Shown: positions 223 through 8,615, numbered from the stretch's first letter. The stretch is DNA of 8,745 nt from Nitrospinota bacterium (GCA_016212295.1 JACRGO010000059.1:1-8745); one strand, 5' to 3'. The notes: generated by a model from the sequence alone, not told the origin. A program made the numbers and translations.

Positions 223-2082
223 ATGAGTTTCTCCAACGAAATCCACCGTCTTAATCCAAGACAGAAAGAGGCAGTCCTGCACGAAGAGGGTCCCCTATTA
301 ATCCTCGCCTGGGCAGGCTCCGGGAAGACCAGGGTCATTACCACCAGGACCGCGTACCTGATAGGCCAGGGGGTGGCCGCTGAAAGCATCGTGGCCGTTA
401 CCTTCACCAACAAGGCAGCCAAGGAAATGCGGGAGAGGGTGAGCGCCATGCGGAAAGGGAAAAAAGGCAAGCGCCCGGTTATCTCAACCTTCCACTCCCT
501 CTGCCTGTCAGTCCTGCGGGACGGCATCCAGCACCTGGGATACCGCAAGGATTTTTCCATCTACGACGCCTCCGAGCAACTCTCCCTTATGAGAAACCTC
601 ATGGGCGACATCAAGGTACAGGACCGTAGCTTCAAGGTGGAGTCACTAATGGAGCGGCTCAGCAGGACCAAGAACGGGGTCGCCTTGCCGGAAGAGGAAG
701 ATGAAGAGGACGAGGTCAAGGCCGCTGTCTTCCAGTCCATCTATCCTAAATACCAGGAGGCGCTGAGGGCGTTCAACGCAGTGGATTTTGACGATCTCCT
801 CCTCCTTGCCCTCAGACTATTTAGGGAACACCCGCCCTCCCTGGACCGGTACCGCGAGCGGTTTCGCCACATCATGGTGGATGAATACCAGGACACGAAC
901 CGTGTGCAGTATGACTTTATTAAAATGCTGGCCGGGGCGAGGAGAAATCTCTGCGTTGTTGGGGACGACGACCAGTCCATATATGGATGGCGCGGGGCCG
1001 ACCTGGGGAATATCCTGGATTTTGAAAGAGATTTTCCCGGCGCGAAGGTGGTGAGGCTGGAGCAGAATTACCGCTCCTTCGGCCACATCCTCAAGGCCGC
1101 CAACGGGGTGATCAGAAATAATTCCAAGAGGATGGAAAAGGCCCTGTGGACTGATCGGGGAGACGGGCCGAAGGTTAAGGTTTTTCAGGCAAGGACCGCG
1201 GAGGAGGAGGCCAAATGGGTGTCGGACAGGATCGTCCGCCTCAAATATGAACAAAAGCTGGCCTATGAGGATTTCGCGGTTATCTACCGGACCAATAATC
1301 TCTCCCGTCCTTTTGAGGAAGCCTTGAGAAAGGAAAGGCTTCCTTACCGGATCGTGGGCGGGACCGGATTTTTCGAGCGGAAGGAAATCAAGGACCTGGC
1401 GGCTTATCTCAAGGCCATGGCCAATCCAGACGATCATTTGAGCTTCTTGAGGGCAGCCTCGGCGCCAAAGAGGGAACTCGGCGCAACCAGCTTTGAAAAA
1501 ATAACCGCCTTCGCGCAAAAGGAATCCATTACCCTGTTGGACGCCTTCGCAAGGGCGGGGGAGGCCGTGGGGTTGAAGGGAAAGGCGGCGGAAAAGGCAG
1601 TGGACTTCGCGGCCTTGCTTCGGCGGTACGGGGAACGGTTTCAAAAAAGAGGGGAAATGGGGAAATCGCTCCAAGGGCTATTGGAGGAGATAGGTTTTAA
1701 TGACTACCTGATGGAGTTTTACAAGACCCTTGACGTGGCGCGAAAACGCATTGAAAACGTGGAAGGGTTCGTCCGTTCCCTTTCCCAATACGAGGAGGAG
1801 GCCGAGGCCCCTTCACTTACAGGTTTCCTGGAAAGCCTTGCCCTGACGGACATGGAAGAAGGCCGGGATGAGTCAGAGGGAGGCATCACCCTCATTTCCA
1901 TGCACTCCTCAAAGGGACTGGAGTTTCCGGTCGTTTTCATAGAAGGCTGGAGGAGGAGGTGCTGCCGCACAAGAGGTCCATGTTCTCCGAGAGGGAACTG
2001 GAGGAGGAGCGGCGTCTTTTTTACGTGGGACTCACCCGCGCCAGGAAGGAATTGCATCTCACCTATACGGAGCATCGACTGA
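223..2082 (+). CDS. rep: Rep/UvrD-type superfamily 1 DNA helicase, frameshifted (5' part)
   Basis: This is an ATP-dependent 3'-5' DNA helicase of the UvrD/Rep/PcrA group, acting in replication restart or repair. Visible motifs: Q motif LNPRQKEAV (residues 10-18), Walker A AGSGKT (31-36), FTNKAAKEM (61-69), TFHSLC (89-94), DEXX box VDEYQDTN (219-226), motif III GDDDQSIYGWRGAD (247-260), motif IV QNYRS (281-285) and motif V SMHSSKGLEFP (559-569). The order and the NPDD and APKRE segments resemble E. coli Rep more than UvrD. Homology stops at Gly575 (codon 1945-1947); the following 44 residues are Arg/Cys-rich out-of-frame sequence. The true C-terminus, with motif VI, lies in another frame at 1947-2249, so one base appears to be missing. 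The restored protein would be 675 aa, close to the 673 aa of E. coli Rep. The start fits family N-termini, and an in-frame stop at 184 excludes a much longer form, but no Shine-Dalgarno sequence precedes it. Rep is the likeliest family; PcrA/UvrD remains possible. Confidence 0.88.
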   Translation: MSFSNEIHRLNPRQKEAVLHEEGPLLILAWAGSGKTRVITTRTAYLIGQGVAAESIVAVTFTNKAAKEMRERVSAMRKGKKGKRPVISTFHSLCLSVLRDGIQHLGYRKDFSIYDASEQLSLMRNLMGDIKVQDRSFKVESLMERLSRTKNGVALPEEEDEEDEVKAAVFQSIYPKYQEALRAFNAVDFDDLLLLALRLFREHPPSLDRYRERFRHIMVDEYQDTNRVQYDFIKMLAGARRNLCVVGDDDQSIYGWRGADLGNILDFERDFPGAKVVRLEQNYRSFGHILKAANGVIRNNSKRMEKALWTDRGDGPKVKVFQARTAEEEAKWVSDRIVRLKYEQKLAYEDFAVIYRTNNLSRPFEEALRKERLPYRIVGGTGFFERKEIKDLAAYLKAMANPDDHLSFLRAASAPKRELGATSFEKITAFAQKESITLLDAFARAGEAVGLKGKAAEKAVDFAALLRRYGERFQKRGEMGKSLQGLLEEIGFNDYLMEFYKTLDVARKRIENVEGFVRSLSQYEEEAEAPSLTGFLESLALTDMEEGRDESEGGITLISMHSSKGLEFPVVFIEGWRRRCCRTRGPCSPRGNWRRSGVFFTWDSPAPGRNCISPIRSID

Positions 2083-2249
2083 GGTACGGGAAGCTTGAGC
2101 CGGTGGTCCCTTCCAGGTTTCTTGACGAAGTGCCTGGGGAGGCTGTCCAGAGGATGGACGCGCCGGAAGAGGAGGCGCCGGACCCGGAACAGGAGGCAAG
2201 GGACGCCAAGGCGTTTTTCGCCAACATGCGGGAAATCCTGGGAAGGTGA
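1947..2249 (+). pseudogene. rep: C-terminal part of the Rep/UvrD helicase in a shifted frame
   Basis: This frame encodes LEEEVLPHKRSM followed by ERRLFYVGLTRARKEL, which is helicase motif VI with its nucleotide-contacting arginine, and then YGKLEPVVPSRFL and a tail ending ANMREILGR. The whole segment is collinear with the C-terminus of E. coli Rep. It joins exactly to Gly575 of the upstream frame if a single C is restored in GGCTGG at 1945-1950. It is therefore the 3' end of the same gene and not an independent gene. The GTG at 1959 is an internal valine codon and has no ribosome binding site of its own. Either the gene is recently inactivated or the assembly has lost one base. Confidence 0.85.
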
Positions 2250-2816: not shown

Positions 2817-3029
2817 ATGATTTCCAAGCTTCTTGTTTTCATCATAAAGGCTTATCAAAGAATCATTTCCCCCTTTCTTCCCCCCGCTTGCCGGTTTTAT
2901 CCAAGTTGTTCGTCTTACGCCATGGAGGCATTGGGAAAGCACCGTCTTTTCAAGGGTTCCTTTCTTATTATAAAGAGAATAGGCAAGTGCCATCCCTTTC
3001 ACGAGGGCGGAGTGGACCCGGTTCCCTGA
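2817..3029 (+). CDS. yidD: Membrane protein insertion efficiency factor YidD
   Basis: YidD is a small membrane-associated protein that improves YidC-dependent insertion of inner-membrane proteins. This 70-residue copy has the full family pattern: an N-terminal amphipathic helix (KLLVFIIKAYQRIISPFLPP), the conserved CRFYPSCSSYAMEAL segment with its two cysteines, then HRLFKGSFLIIKRIGKCHPF and the terminal GGVDPVP. The length is typical. It starts five bases after rnpA without a clear Shine-Dalgarno sequence, which suggests coupling. yidC normally follows closely; here 280 bases intervene, most of them a palindromic repeat element. Confidence 0.95.
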   Translation: MISKLLVFIIKAYQRIISPFLPPACRFYPSCSSYAMEALGKHRLFKGSFLIIKRIGKCHPFHEGGVDPVP

Positions 3030-3309
3030 GAGAGGGCGCTGGACCCCTTCCGCTTCCTTGAGTGAAAGAGCATAGCTTCGCAAATTGACTAATGAAAATA
3101 GTGATTTCCCAAAAAGCTGAGTGACTAAAGTGTAAAGTGAACTAAAGTGGCTAAAGTTAAGGAAGGCAAGGCACAAAGGCAGAAGGCACTAAGATGGGAA
3201 GGCGGAAGATTCAAGGCTTTGTGCCTTTGTGCCTTGCCTTCCTTAACTTTTAGTCACTTTAAACTTTAGCTCACGTTAGTCACTCGTTCATCCCCTCGGA
3301 GTTACTTAT
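3030..3309. other. Non-coding gap between yidD and yidC
   Basis: This 280-base gap contains no plausible gene. It is mostly occupied by the first copy of a palindromic repeat element (about 3054-3285). The last bases hold the yidC ribosome binding site GGAG at 3298-3301, eight bases before the ATG. I see no T-run terminator and no convincing promoter. Whether yidC is cotranscribed through the hairpin or has its own promoter cannot be told from sequence. Confidence 0.7.
3054..3285 (+). repeat. Palindromic repeat element, copy 1
   Basis: A conserved left flank (about 3054-3117, including GTGATTTCCCAAAAAGCT) leads into a long hairpin. The outer left arm (3119-3158) begins GAGTGACTAAAGTG and is built from degenerate repeats of CTAAAGTG. 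The outer right arm (3245-3284) ends GTTAGTCACTC. Nested inside, 3154-3181 and 3222-3249 are perfect 28-base inverted arms (AAGTTAAGGAAGGCAAGG and onward), enclosing a 40-base loop. The left flank and outer arms match a second copy at about 6411-6595 in the same orientation; the inner arms do not. A miniature non-autonomous mobile element or an intergenic palindromic repeat family is the likely nature. No protein is encoded. Confidence 0.85.
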
Positions 3310-4974
3310 ATGGAAGTTCGGGCCGTTGTGGCTTTTGTATTGTCGTTGCTGGCTTTCGCGGGCTGGAATTTTTTCCTGGAGTCCAGGCACACTAAGGAGA
3401 CCCCCAAGGTCCATTCAATGCAGGAGAAAATGCCTGCCTCTACCACGGAGCCGGCGTCTCTGAAAAAGGCCGAGGGACCAGGAATTTCTCAAGCGCCTCC
3501 GTCTTCCATCGGGCTTTCCTCTCCGGAGCATGCCGCTGACGCAAAGGCCGGTTCGCCCTTCGATGCTTCTCTTAAATCCGGCAAATCCGCCAAGGACGTT
3601 ACCGTCACCCTTAAAAACAGCACGATGGTCTTCACCACCGCCGGGGCCGGAATCAAGTCCTTCCTGCTCACCAAGTACAAGGACCATAATGGAAAACCCC
3701 TGGAACTCATCCGCGCCCCGGAGGGGAACATACCATCGCCTCGCATTGAATTGGCGGACAAGAACCTGGCTTTGTTCATAGGACGAGGCATCTATGACGC
3801 CTCCACTGATAATTTGGCCCTGTCGGAAAACAACCCGGCAGGTTCAATTGTCTTCTCTCTGAAAGACCACTCCGGCCTGGAGGTCATAAAGGAATATTCC
3901 TTTGCCTTCGACAGTTACAAGGTCGATTGCTCGATAAAAATGAGTTATGGAAGCGAGCCGCTTAAGACCCTTCTTATATCCTGGCACGATGCCATCCAAT
4001 CCGGAAAAACCGAAAAAGACAGCTATACTTACGAAGGCCCCACTACCCTCGTGGGATTCGACAGAAAAACGGACGCCAAGAACCTTGATGAAGGGCCGGT
4101 CCGCCACGCTGGAGACTTGAAATGGACCGCCTATCAAAATAAGTATTTCGCCATTGCCCTGATCCCCTTGGAAAAAAATCTGGCGGCGGTGATCGAAAAG
4201 GGCAGGAACGGAGCGGCCTCGGTGGGCCTGGAGTACAGCCAGGAAAGTTTTCCCTTTCAGAATAAATTTTCCTTCTTTTTGGGTCCAAAGGAAATGGACC
4301 AGTTGGACCGCCTGAAGGCAATCTCCCTTGATTACCTCCTTGACTACGGGTGGTTCGGCAATTTCTTCACCTTCCTTGTGAAGCCGCTTTTTAGTTTCCT
4401 GCAATACTTTTACCACATGACCGGCAATTACGGTTGGTCCATCATCATAATGACCGTCATAATAAAAGTCCTCTTCTTCCCCCTTTCCCACAAGAGCTTC
4501 AAGTCCATGAAGAACATGCAGAAGATCCAGCCGGAAATCAAGATTTTGCAGGAGAGGTATAAGGACGACAGGCAGATGCTGAGCCAGGAGCTTATGCGGG
4601 TGTACCGCGAGAACAAGGTCAATCCCATGGGAGGCTGTCTTCCAATGATCCTGCAGATCCCGGTGTTCATAGCCCTCTACCAGGTGCTTTTGGTTTCCAT
4701 TGAACTGCGGAACGCCCCATTTATTTTATGGATTTTGGATCTTTCCGAGAAGGACCCTTTCTACGTGACGCCCCTGCTTATGGGCGCCACCATGTTTTTG
4801 CAGCAGAAGATGTCTCCTCCAGTGGGAGACCCGACGCAGCAAAAAATGATGATGATCCTGCCGATAGTGTTCACCTTCCTCTTCATGAATTTTCCTTCCG
4901 GCCTTGTTATTTACTGGCTGGTGAATAATGTTTTGACAATCGGGCAGCAATATTACATAAACAAGTATTCATAG
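3310..4974 (+). CDS. yidC: Membrane protein insertase YidC
   Basis: YidC inserts and folds inner-membrane proteins, alone or with the Sec translocon. This 554-residue protein has the Gram-negative architecture. Residues 5-22 form the N-terminal membrane anchor. A Ser/Pro/Ala/Lys-rich linker follows (about 25-90), then the periplasmic P1 domain (about 95-340). The conserved C-terminal insertase core of membrane helices starts near 350. Hallmarks include the SFKSMKNMQKIQPEI cytoplasmic segment, ENKVNPMGGCLPMILQIPVF, QQKMSPPVGDPTQQKMM and FPSGLVIYWLVNN. The hydrophilic-groove arginine of E. coli YidC (R366) aligns with Lys386, so the positive charge is kept. The start has a GGAG ribosome binding site (3298-3301). 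jag follows 33 bases later. The C-terminal tail is short, ending at NKYS. Confidence 0.97.
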   Translation: MEVRAVVAFVLSLLAFAGWNFFLESRHTKETPKVHSMQEKMPASTTEPASLKKAEGPGISQAPPSSIGLSSPEHAADAKAGSPFDASLKSGKSAKDVTVTLKNSTMVFTTAGAGIKSFLLTKYKDHNGKPLELIRAPEGNIPSPRIELADKNLALFIGRGIYDASTDNLALSENNPAGSIVFSLKDHSGLEVIKEYSFAFDSYKVDCSIKMSYGSEPLKTLLISWHDAIQSGKTEKDSYTYEGPTTLVGFDRKTDAKNLDEGPVRHAGDLKWTAYQNKYFAIALIPLEKNLAAVIEKGRNGAASVGLEYSQESFPFQNKFSFFLGPKEMDQLDRLKAISLDYLLDYGWFGNFFTFLVKPLFSFLQYFYHMTGNYGWSIIIMTVIIKVLFFPLSHKSFKSMKNMQKIQPEIKILQERYKDDRQMLSQELMRVYRENKVNPMGGCLPMILQIPVFIALYQVLLVSIELRNAPFILWILDLSEKDPFYVTPLLMGATMFLQQKMSPPVGDPTQQKMMMILPIVFTFLFMNFPSGLVIYWLVNNVLTIGQQYYINKYS

Positions 4975-5007
4975 CGCGGCATCACCGCAGCTTCAGGAGA
5001 CGAATTC

Positions 5008-5619
5008 ATGGCATGGTTTTTTGGATCAAAAAATAAAGACGAAGTAAATTCCGGCGAGGAATCCAGCCAGACAATTGAAAAGGCTGAAGAAAAAACGGAT
5101 GACTCAGCGGCGGCTTTTCCGTGCGCCTTGGAGGAAAAACCTGGAAGCGGTTTTCCATCCGGTAAACCCCAAAAATCGCCGGATGATATTTTGAAGAATT
5201 TACTGGACCTGATGGGGGTGGAATACGCGATTTCCAGGGAAGAAACCGATGACGGGATACATTTTAACATTTCCGGCGAGTATGAGGCGCTCCTTATAGG
5301 GAAGATGGGGCAAACCCTGGACGCCCTGGAATATCTGATAGGTAAGATATGCCACGGGGGACGGGAAGCGCCGGAAAAGAGAATTTTCCTGGATGTTGGA
5401 AACTACCGCAAAAAGAGAGAGGAAAAAATCGTTTTCCTGGCCCGTAAACTGGCCTCAAGGGTGGCAGACCATGGAAGACCGGAAATAATAAAACCCATGA
5501 GTCCAATGGAGAGAAAAATTGTCCACATGACTCTGCGTGACCACCCTTGCGTGGAGACGAAAAGCGAGGGCGAGGGATTTTATAAGGAAATCGTTTTGTC
5601 CTATAAAAAAAGCTTATAG
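5008..5619 (+). CDS. jag: Jag/KhpB-type RNA-binding protein (KH and R3H domains)
   Basis: Jag (KhpB) is a cytoplasmic single-stranded nucleic acid binding protein commonly encoded beside yidC. Residues about 57-135 form the KH domain, with the GKMG loop at 98-101 inside IGKMGQTLDALEYLIGKI. Residues about 143-200 form the R3H domain, with the defining Arg169 and His173 in ERKIVHMTL and the family sequence VETKSEGEGFYKEIVL. The first 55 residues are acidic and low in complexity. They replace the folded Jag-N domain found in many Firmicutes homologues, so this is a form without that domain. The start is supported by AGGAGA at 4995-5000. Total length is 203 residues. It is probably cotranscribed with yidC. 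No clear terminator follows. Confidence 0.94.
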   Translation: MAWFFGSKNKDEVNSGEESSQTIEKAEEKTDDSAAAFPCALEEKPGSGFPSGKPQKSPDDILKNLLDLMGVEYAISREETDDGIHFNISGEYEALLIGKMGQTLDALEYLIGKICHGGREAPEKRIFLDVGNYRKKREEKIVFLARKLASRVADHGRPEIIKPMSPMERKIVHMTLRDHPCVETKSEGEGFYKEIVLSYKKSL

Positions 5620-5691
5620 CGGGTTGCAACGATTTTTTTTATCTGTTAATCTCTAAGGCATTCAGGCGCGAACTTTTTTGATTCAAAATTC

Positions 5692-5886
5692 ATGTCTTTT
5701 TTTCTGACGGTTATCGGGATGGTTCTGATTGTGGAAGGCGTCCCGTATTTTTGCTTTCCTGCCTCAGTAAAGGCCCTTGCGGTAAAACTTATCGAGATGG
5801 ATGAAAAAATGCTAAGGGGCATGGGATTTCTCCTTACCATAGCCGGGCTTGTCTTTGTTTATATAGGAAGACGCGTTATTATATAG
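5692..5886 (+). CDS. DUF2065-type small inner membrane protein
   Basis: This 64-residue protein has two hydrophobic segments (about residues 2-21 and 43-58) separated by a short loop containing SVKALAVKLIEMDEKMLRGMG. The pattern resembles the DUF2065/YjeT family: a hydrophobic start ending in EGVPYF, a central LRGMG and a second helix ending in an arginine. The function of that family is not established. No clear Shine-Dalgarno sequence precedes the ATG. The stop codon overlaps the ribosome binding site of the lipoprotein gene eight bases downstream, so the two are probably translated together. Family assignment rests on pattern memory and is moderately sure; that it is a real membrane protein gene is likely. 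Confidence 0.75.
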   Translation: MSFFLTVIGMVLIVEGVPYFCFPASVKALAVKLIEMDEKMLRGMGFLLTIAGLVFVYIGRRVII

Positions 5887-5894
5887 AGGCTTCC

Positions 5895-6407
5895 ATGCAG
5901 AAACCACTTACTGGATTTTTAGCCTGCCTCCTTGTTCCAGCCTTTTGTTTTGTCCTAGGCTGTGAAACAACCAGCGGGGACGGCAAGCTCAAGGAAAAGA
6001 AGACTGAGCGGGTCATTCCATCCGGCAAGGCCCGAGGCGAGGCAACAATCGTGCATGAGACAATCGTTGAGGAAGTCCCCGCCAACGAAGCCGAGAGCCG
6101 GTTTTCCGATATTCCTATCCCACAAGGTTTTAAATTGGATAGATCCAGGTCCTTTGTATACGAGGCAGGGCATATCAAGGCAGGGCTGTTGAGCTATGAG
6201 GGAGGGGCCTTCTCCATGGACAAAATAATTTCCTTTTACAAGACCGAGATGCCCCCTTTTCAATGGAAACTGACGAATAGTTTCGAGGCCAACGACGCCA
6301 CCTTGTATTTTGAAAAACCGGGCTGGTTCTGCAGGATACAAATCCAGTCCACCAAGTTCCGTAAAACAGACCTCCTTATTTCACTTGGCCCAAAACCCGC
6401 TGAATAG
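5895..6407 (+). CDS. Putative lipoprotein of unknown function
   Basis: The 170-residue product starts with a signal peptide, MQKPLTGFLACLLVPAFCFV, ending in a lipobox LGC with Cys23 as the lipidated residue. Residues 24-65 are charged and probably unstructured. Residues about 70-165 look like one small alpha/beta domain: SDIPIPQGFKLD, then a strand-rich stretch (FVYEAGHIKAGLLSYEG), a helix (SMDKIISFYKTEMPPFQW) and strands around ATLYFEKPGWFCRIQI. This arrangement recalls a type of envelope domain I have seen in deltaproteobacterial and related lipoproteins, but I cannot name the family. The start is supported by AGAGG at 5885-5889, overlapping the upstream stop codon, which indicates translational coupling with the DUF2065-type gene. 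The stop codon lies three bases before the left flank of the second palindromic element. Confidence 0.85.
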   Translation: MQKPLTGFLACLLVPAFCFVLGCETTSGDGKLKEKKTERVIPSGKARGEATIVHETIVEEVPANEAESRFSDIPIPQGFKLDRSRSFVYEAGHIKAGLLSYEGGAFSMDKIISFYKTEMPPFQWKLTNSFEANDATLYFEKPGWFCRIQIQSTKFRKTDLLISLGPKPAE

Positions 6408-6410
6408 CAT

Positions 6411-6595
6411 TTCCTTGAAAGAACCTGGTTTCGCGAATTGATTAATGAAAATAGGTGATTTCCCAAAAAGCTGAGTGACTAAAGTGTAAAGTGAACTAAA
6501 GTGCCTAAAGTTGTGGTAGGTTTCTTTATTTTATAGCAGAAAAATAACTTCCACAACTTTAGTCACTTTAAACTTTAGCGCACTTTAGTCACTCG
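6411..6595 (+). repeat. Palindromic repeat element, copy 2
   Basis: The left flank (6411-6472) and the left arm beginning GAGTGACTAAAGTGTAAAG (6473 onward) match copy 1 almost base for base; from 6431 to 6512 I count about four differences. The 44-base arms 6473-6516 and 6551-6594 pair at 33 positions: 14 outer pairs, a ten-base internal mismatch, then 19 inner pairs with one mismatch. The 34-base loop is unrelated to the centre of copy 1, and the inner stem here is only GTTGTGG with CCACAAC. Copy 2 begins four bases after a lipoprotein stop codon, and copy 1 begins 25 bases after the yidD stop codon. Confidence 0.85.
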
Positions 6596-6679
6596 CATTG
6601 CAATCCCGTTGATTTTTAAGGAAAAACTTTGAAATTCCGATACAGTTATTAAATGAGAAACAATATTTGAAATTATTTT

Positions 6680-7958: not shown

Positions 7959-8615
7959 ATGAAAAAAAGTATTCGGAAAGTATTGGGTCTCGCTCTTGGT
8001 TTTGGGCTTTTCGCGTCGGCCCTTGCCCCAGTCTCCGCCCTTGCCGCTGGAAAAGGAATCGGCACTCTTGTGATTACCACGCAGGACACCTCGAAAAAAC
8101 AGGTAGCAGCGCCAATATCCGTGGATGGCGTGCTTAAGGGAACCGGGAAAGTGATCCTGAAGAAGCTTCCGGCAAAGACGTACGAAGTGAAATTCGGGGA
8201 TCTGGCGGGATATACCATTGTGTCTCCCAGGAGCGGAAAGAAAAAAGTTCAGGTAAAGGCAGGGGAGGTAGCACGATCGACAGCGATTTATAAAAAGTCC
8301 TCTTCCGGTGTTGGTGGGGGCACAACAGGCGGCGGAAAAACGGTAACCGACGTTGACGGCAACGTTTATAATACAGTAACCATAGGCACCCAGACATGGA
8401 TGAAAGAAAATCTTAAGGTAACCAAATACCGCGACGGCACTGCCATACCCACTACCACAGCGGATATTTCAGCCGAGACCTCGCCGGCATACCAGTGGGC
8501 ATATAATGGTGATGAAAGCAATGCCGCTGCCTACGGCCGATTATATACCTGGCATGCCGCGACCGACAGCAGAGGCTTATGTCCCGCGGGCTGGCACTTG
8601 CCTACCGCACGGTAA
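7959..8615 (+). CDS. Secreted PEGA-like and FISUMP-domain protein, truncated
   Basis: The product has a signal peptide (1 to about 29, with SALA before the likely cleavage site). Next comes a beta-rich PEGA-like domain (about 35-112: GTLVITTQDTSKKQ, PISVDGVLKGTG, LKKLPAKTYEVKFG), followed by a Gly/Ser/Thr linker (113-130). A Fibrobacter succinogenes major paralogous (FISUMP) domain begins near residue 131, with DVDGNVYNTVTIGTQTWMKE, NLKVTKYRDGTAIP, AYQWAYNGD and AYGRLYTWHA. It stops eleven residues after the start of RGLCPAGWHLPT. In this family that motif is normally followed by a further half domain beginning near a DEW motif. Here TAA follows immediately and neither other forward frame continues the domain, so the gene looks truncated, perhaps by an insertion near 8608. 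FISUMP proteins are predicted surface or secreted proteins without a settled function. The start is secure because of the ribosome binding site at 7945-7951. Confidence 0.82.
   Translation: MKKSIRKVLGLALGFGLFASALAPVSALAAGKGIGTLVITTQDTSKKQVAAPISVDGVLKGTGKVILKKLPAKTYEVKFGDLAGYTIVSPRSGKKKVQVKAGEVARSTAIYKKSSSGVGGGTTGGGKTVTDVDGNVYNTVTIGTQTWMKENLKVTKYRDGTAIPTTTADISAETSPAYQWAYNGDESNAAAYGRLYTWHAATDSRGLCPAGWHLPTAR

Follow-up and report, generated by a model that had tools for sequence, protein, structure and literature searches.

Palindromic repeats with common ends and exchangeable centres in a Nitrospinota genome

It is unsettled by what means small palindromes of bacteria spread and what keeps their arms complementary as the sequences diverge, and the repeat family described here bears on both questions. 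Bacterial MITEs (RUP, Correia/NEMIS, ERIC/RU-1, YPAL/RU-2 and RPE) are, in the consulted part of PMC2229807, non-coding, shorter than about 250 bases, intergenic and able to form long stem-loops, and our family resembles them in these respects. REPs, as described in PMC3733652, measure 20–40 bases, have stems of 5–13 bp and bear a terminal tetranucleotide tag, GTAG or CGTC, on one side. Template switching, a mutation process, has been documented both to create stems and to make the arms of a stem match (PMC8794818, PMC8604942).

Two palindromic copies in the window

The window, meaning the whole stretch of DNA analysed, is one 8,745-base contig (C236) of a 237-contig draft genome of 3.74 Mb (G000). 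The genes near the two copies are ordinary, encoding a UvrD-like helicase, RnpA, YidD, YidC, a KhpB/Jag-type protein, a LapA-domain protein and a Fib_succ_major protein. A preliminary description of the sequence had reported two related palindromic copies, and these were borne out at 3066–3286 and 6419–6645, with a common left part and outer CTAAAGTG arms. The copies align at 94% over 66 bases and 95% over 38 bases; the left part is indeed shared, although it measures about 53 bases rather than the 60 or so first given. As single-stranded DNA, copies 1 and 2 fold with z scores of -13.5 and -9.8, respectively, and 0/200 shuffles were equally good. Both carry the ten-base internal mismatch reported earlier, with TNAAGTGAAC in the left arm facing (A/C)GCTAAAGTT in the right, and inspection of the two centres confirmed that they differ as described. 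The inner arms of copy 1 are perfect, as claimed, but form a stem of 29 bases (3153–3181/3222–3250), not 28. Copy 2 had been ended near 6595 but extends to 6645, because its right end, which recurs in the genome and is absent from copy 1, had been overlooked. Both copies lie downstream of stop codons, at corrected distances: the left end of copy 1 is 36 bases 3' of the yidD stop (3027–3029), and that of copy 2 is 11 bases past the stop of an ORF at 5895–6407. Copy 2 is a near-complete canonical element, with a left end, an imperfect CTAAAGTG hairpin with the canonical centre, and a right end. Copy 1 is a derivative that has lost the right end and has a derived centre, a second hairpin being nested at its tip. 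Their parts are as follows.

3066–3098, + strand: left end (LE) of copy 1, AAGAGCATAGCTTCGCAAATTGACTAATGAAAA; fits the genome-wide LE pattern with 1 mismatch, and the same LE occurs in another family of the class
3099–3118, + strand: left spacer of copy 1, TAGTGATTTCCCAAAAAGCT; common to CTAAAGTG-type copies
3119–3158, + strand: left outer arm of copy 1, made of CTAAAGTG units; from copy–copy alignment and arm comparison
3159–3244, no strand: nested second hairpin of copy 1, CACAAAGG-type, with loop ATGGGAAGGCGGAAGATTCAAGG; also on contig C161
3245–3286, + strand: right outer arm of copy 1; the right end of other copies is missing here
6419–6451, + strand: left end (LE) of copy 2; recurs among LE–RE copies
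6452–6472, + strand: left spacer of copy 2; recurs in genome copies
6473–6516, + strand: left arm of copy 2, made of CTAAAGTG units and terminating in GTTGTGG; from alignment, arms and folding
6517–6550, no strand: canonical T-rich/A-rich loop of copy 2; recurs in many copies
6551–6594, + strand: right arm of copy 2, CCACAAC...GTCACTC; from alignment, arms and folding
6595–6645, + strand: right spacer and right end (RE) of copy 2, ...AACTTTGAAATTCCGATACAG; the RE pattern occurs at 31 places, with 0 for the reversed control, and also terminates another centre type

Other features of the window were seen in passing. The UvrD/Rep-type helicase ORF (223–2082) looks frameshifted (window 1940–2249), the end of the protein, FYVGLTRARKELHLTYTEHRL, lying in another frame from about 1959. 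The Fib_succ_major-domain ORF (window 7959–8615) has an early stop and matches only profile positions 1–75 of 187; it is probably truncated or frameshifted near 8612. A further palindromic element at 52–200 has inverted ends AGATACTTACTCGCCTATTC / GAATAGGCGAGTAAGTATCT (34 bases, 94%), and its relatives lie near C4:4084, C49 and C70:34891, one of them with a CACGAAT hairpin nested within it.

Common ends around exchangeable centres

The preliminary description had proposed a repeat family, and its copies are not confined to these two places but number in the dozens across the genome: a pattern of two arm units, GTGACTAAAGTGN{0,30}CTAAAGT, matched 60 times genome-wide and the reversed control pattern 0 times, which excludes chance. 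The left half of copy 1 gave 61 alignments in the genome and the longer copy 2 gave 85, with both strands of the palindrome counted. The canonical order is LE AAGAACATAGCTTCGCAAATTGATTAATGAAAA, spacer, left arm GAGTGACTAAAGTGTCAAGTGAACTAAAGTGCCTAAAGTTGTGG, T/A-rich loop, right arm CCACAACTTTAGTCACTTTAAACTTTAGCTCACTTTAGTCACTC, spacer and RE AAAGAAAAACTTTGAAATTCCGATACAG. LE (about 33 bases) and RE (about 28 bases) are the non-complementary ends of a complete copy, and one or both are missing in many copies; the hairpin between them is about 120 bases long, with arms of about 40 bp. By simple ORF calls, 39/40 hairpins lie outside long ORFs and 25/38 lie between tandem genes. The family, two of whose copies lie in the window, is best explained as a palindromic repeat that is modular, does not code for protein and is dispersed through the genome. 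A text search of the literature found no match to the repeat strings, and Rfam gave no match above gathering score, only sub-threshold matches to microRNA hairpin models. The exact LE pattern was not found in viral contigs, and among plasmids neither copy 2 nor an element from G015, a genome from another family within the class, was matched.

The ends stay the same around differing interiors. Thirteen complete LE–RE copies, 54–341 bases long, were extracted; within this one genome, the shell holds the CTAAAGTG hairpin, an CCACGAATTAACAC hairpin (CACGAAT type) or none. The same ends enclose a hairpin other than the CTAAAGTG one, GGAACCACGAATTAACAC...GTGTCCATTCGTGGTTCC, at C138:14577, C143, C148:18362 and C156:17676, a nested mixture at C227 and no hairpin at all at C96:12129 (54 bases). 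G015 has a closely similar LE (28–29/29 identical) together with RE, and there the shell holds a third kind of centre, CCACGAAATACACGAAATACACGAAA, an CCACGAAATACACG hairpin (CACGAAA type). In that genome the hairpin sits between direct repeats of about 22–44 bases, which are clear in G015 and weak in our genome (p 0.03–0.62), and palindromes with a second palindrome nested at the tip are again seen. The CACGAAT hairpin is found in a different shell as well, an inverted pair GTAACATTTTAGC... / ...GCTAAAGTGTTAC at C222, C170 and C168 that was recognized by eye and was negative in the automatic inverted-repeat test. The elements at these three sites are near-identical, with ends GTAACATTTTAGCTGTTTGAAAAAAGGC / GCTAAAGTGTTAC around the hairpin. 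Because the same ends surround differing centres, the centres are interchangeable modules. The centre of copy 1 is itself found elsewhere: a search with it identified C161:6457, where the junction CTAAAGTTAAGGAAGGCAAGG and loop ATGGGAAGGCGGAAGATTCAAGG are identical and the outer arms are shorter. The centre was thus inherited rather than rebuilt in place, and a swap of ready-made modules explains why this pair of copies has unrelated yet self-complementary centres.

We consider it somewhat probable, at roughly 60%, that the family is a modular repeat made of a shell and an exchangeable hairpin, with centres drawn from other hairpin families and arms occasionally copied into each other. In a complete copy a large hairpin is enclosed by the shell, whose two ends, LE and RE, are short and not complementary to each other. 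Hairpins are exchangeable within the shell and are also seen shell-less or nested in the tip of a second hairpin, copy 1 being an example; centres would be self-complementary because each belongs to another hairpin repeat family, not through rebuilding in place. The arms are built of units of 7–10 bases, which would be gained and lost, and an arm would occasionally be overwritten with the sequence of its partner, for which polymerase template switching is the simplest copying step. Copies may move as units, with an enzyme presumably acting on the ends or on the hairpin. Complete copies are fewer than shell-less hairpins, and what moves may therefore not be the shell.

A more ambitious version of this reading is tentative and rather unlikely: a mobile shell, its two fixed ends near-identical across bacterial families, might swap cores from other hairpin families in a cassette-like palindrome system, with new cores entering at hairpin tips or, as in G015, between direct repeats, via single-stranded template switching.

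Arm matching and same-genus loci

Arms match their own partners slightly better than those of other copies. Among 25 two-armed copies, whole left arms scored 0.607 against their own right arms and 0.574 against those of others (p 0.028), an excess driven by four copies (C97:23467, C148:24408, C138:37790 and C70:23863) whose arms are near-perfect, unlike the canonical mismatched pair. C97:23467 has the left-type version in both arms, C148:24408 and C138:37790 have the right-type version in both, and C70:23863 has its own unit order in both. The covariation check recommended in the preliminary description, when run on the arms, revealed matched double changes above shuffles, but the effect was modest and most copies retain the ten-base mismatch. 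The 16 canonical copies had 10 matched double changes compared with 1.9 by shuffling (p 5e-5), and once the most divergent copy was removed there were 6 compared with 1.3 (p 6.5e-4), in shuffle tests that ignore relatedness between copies. Three matched changes fall at the outermost column and may mark a subfamily. We read the arm matching as real but modest. The near-perfect arms fit occasional arm-to-arm template switching, which is the simplest of the routes known (PMC8794818, PMC8604942); arm matching is compatible with selection for pairing too, and the data do not separate the two. Such copying must be rare, as most copies retain the ten-base mismatch. The earlier proposal that the hairpin is rebuilt in situ by template switching finds some support in the arms and is unneeded for the centres, given the match at C161.

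It is also conceivable, but very improbable, that replicative template switching made each hairpin in place, with the likeness among copies arising from reused templates. Perfect stems, matched arm changes and nesting at tips are all consistent with this account, as is the documented capacity of template switching to create stems and equalize arms (PMC8794818, PMC8604942). However, dispersed loci have long non-palindromic parts in common (LE, spacers, loops and RE), which weakens it, and the whole centre of copy 1 is shared with another locus (C161).

In a same-genus genome, G001, the element was present at 0/8 readable loci, including the yidD–yidC locus that holds copy 1; gene names at these loci were read from sequence, apart from those of the annotated genes of the window. 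By eye, there was no comparable hairpin at yidD–yidC, flhB–flhA, a fliQ/fliR-like locus, HU or a nucleotidyltransferase-like locus, and flhF–flhG, a purA/serA-like locus and rnhB each had an unrelated element, either a hairpin or an inverted repeat. In sampled stretches, long hairpins occurred at about 0.8 (G000) and 0.55 (G001) per 10 kb, and in shuffles not at all. A second batch of flanks, with little synteny to G001, added no orthologous element. The exact ends that comparison with element-free loci had been expected to give were not recovered, the G001 intergenic regions being too diverged to place a junction.

These loci bear on the idea that selection retains a hairpin at each site, for instance for mRNA processing, stability or termination, while sequences drift under constraint. 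We consider this rather unlikely. Nearly all copies are intergenic, most of them between tandem genes, the arms carry matched double changes, and at three of the eight readable G001 loci the CTAAAGTG hairpin of G000 has as its counterpart an unrelated hairpin or an element with inverted repeats; the last observation, a raw count, is suggestive. However, the remaining five loci lack a comparable hairpin, insertion into the only free space would likewise place unrelated elements at the same intergenic sites, and the ten-base mismatch is retained in most copies. Nor does a T-run directly follow the stem, and the copy at the G000 HU gene lies between the stop codon and a separate terminator common to both genomes. 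Matched changes in such hairpins should be read with caution, as they are not proof of RNA function.

Comparison with described repeats

We also weighed whether the family is a MITE in the strict sense, an insertion sequence that carries an internal deletion and is mobilized through its ends by a transposase. Like MITEs, its members are short, non-coding, dispersed in multiple copies and intergenic; they are missing from same-genus loci and have two fixed ends. In class relatives G004 and G009, moreover, CTAAAGTG hairpins lie between terminal inverted repeats GTAAGTTCAAACTGA. In our genome, by contrast, LE and RE do not form an inverted pair (three window-type copies score 17–19 compared with shuffle maxima of 22–30), and neither terminal inverted repeats nor target duplications of the LE–RE shell were found; the search for duplications, another check that the preliminary description had advised, covered 13 complete copies, in which flank similarity was not above shuffles. 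No transposase for the ends was found in the genome contigs, and among LE/RE matches in the 237 contigs we noticed no longer pair with a gene between the ends, in an assembly of a kind that repeats often break. We consider a MITE origin of this kind unlikely. The GTAAGTTCAAACTGA motif also flanks CTAAAGTG hairpins in Candidatus Anammoxibacter, a member of another phylum, where the inverted-repeat score is within the shuffled range; judged from these sequences, the shared arrangement suggests transfer between phyla.

Membership among the REPs was rejected on size, tag and RAYT linkage. The hairpin of about 120 bases with arms of about 40 bp compares with a 20–40-base unit with a 5–13 bp stem, and the hairpin foot reads AAAAAGCT-GAGTGAC and GTCACTC-GC, the canonical unit having GTAG only at the stem tip. 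A REP/RAYT origin fared no better, as the element flanks neither of the two Y1_Tnp loci in this incompletely assembled genome. Separately from this family, a Y1 transposase gene at G000:C211:14616–14861 is flanked on both sides by GGATTTGCAATCC-type palindrome arrays, an arrangement that is RAYT-like.

With many copies in one genome, the same ends, differing cores and some arms apparently overwritten, the modular repeat offers material in which comparison of strains could separate insertion, core exchange and arm correction. Template-switch (quasi-palindrome) correction turns one arm of an inverted repeat into a copy of the other through multi-base compensatory changes (PMC8794818, PMC8604942); it differs in that it is a way of mutating rather than a family of elements, and here it would be read from paralogous copies, not from a parent–offspring comparison. 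REPs, REPINs and BIMEs, with their RAYT Y1 transposases, are similar as dispersed intergenic palindromes with imperfect stems, dimers and mosaics, but differ in that our stems are about 40 bp and lack a tag at the hairpin foot. By size, copy number and placement the family works like a MITE-type repeat (PMC2229807, consulted part), but, as tested, it belongs to neither the MITEs nor the REPs. According to the same part of that source, most bacterial MITEs have the terminal inverted repeats and target duplications not found here, and a whole palindromic centre swapped between fixed ends is described for none. It further describes YPAL/RU-2 of enterobacteria as having, like our family, internal rather than terminal inverted repeats and no TA ends; YPAL differs in its target duplications of 3–26 bp, and the two are set apart by description, not by sequence. 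Together, these comparisons show a family that is new among the records searched and belongs to a familiar class, the small palindromic interspersed repeats of bacteria, within which it is distinguished by fixed ends and exchangeable palindromic cores.
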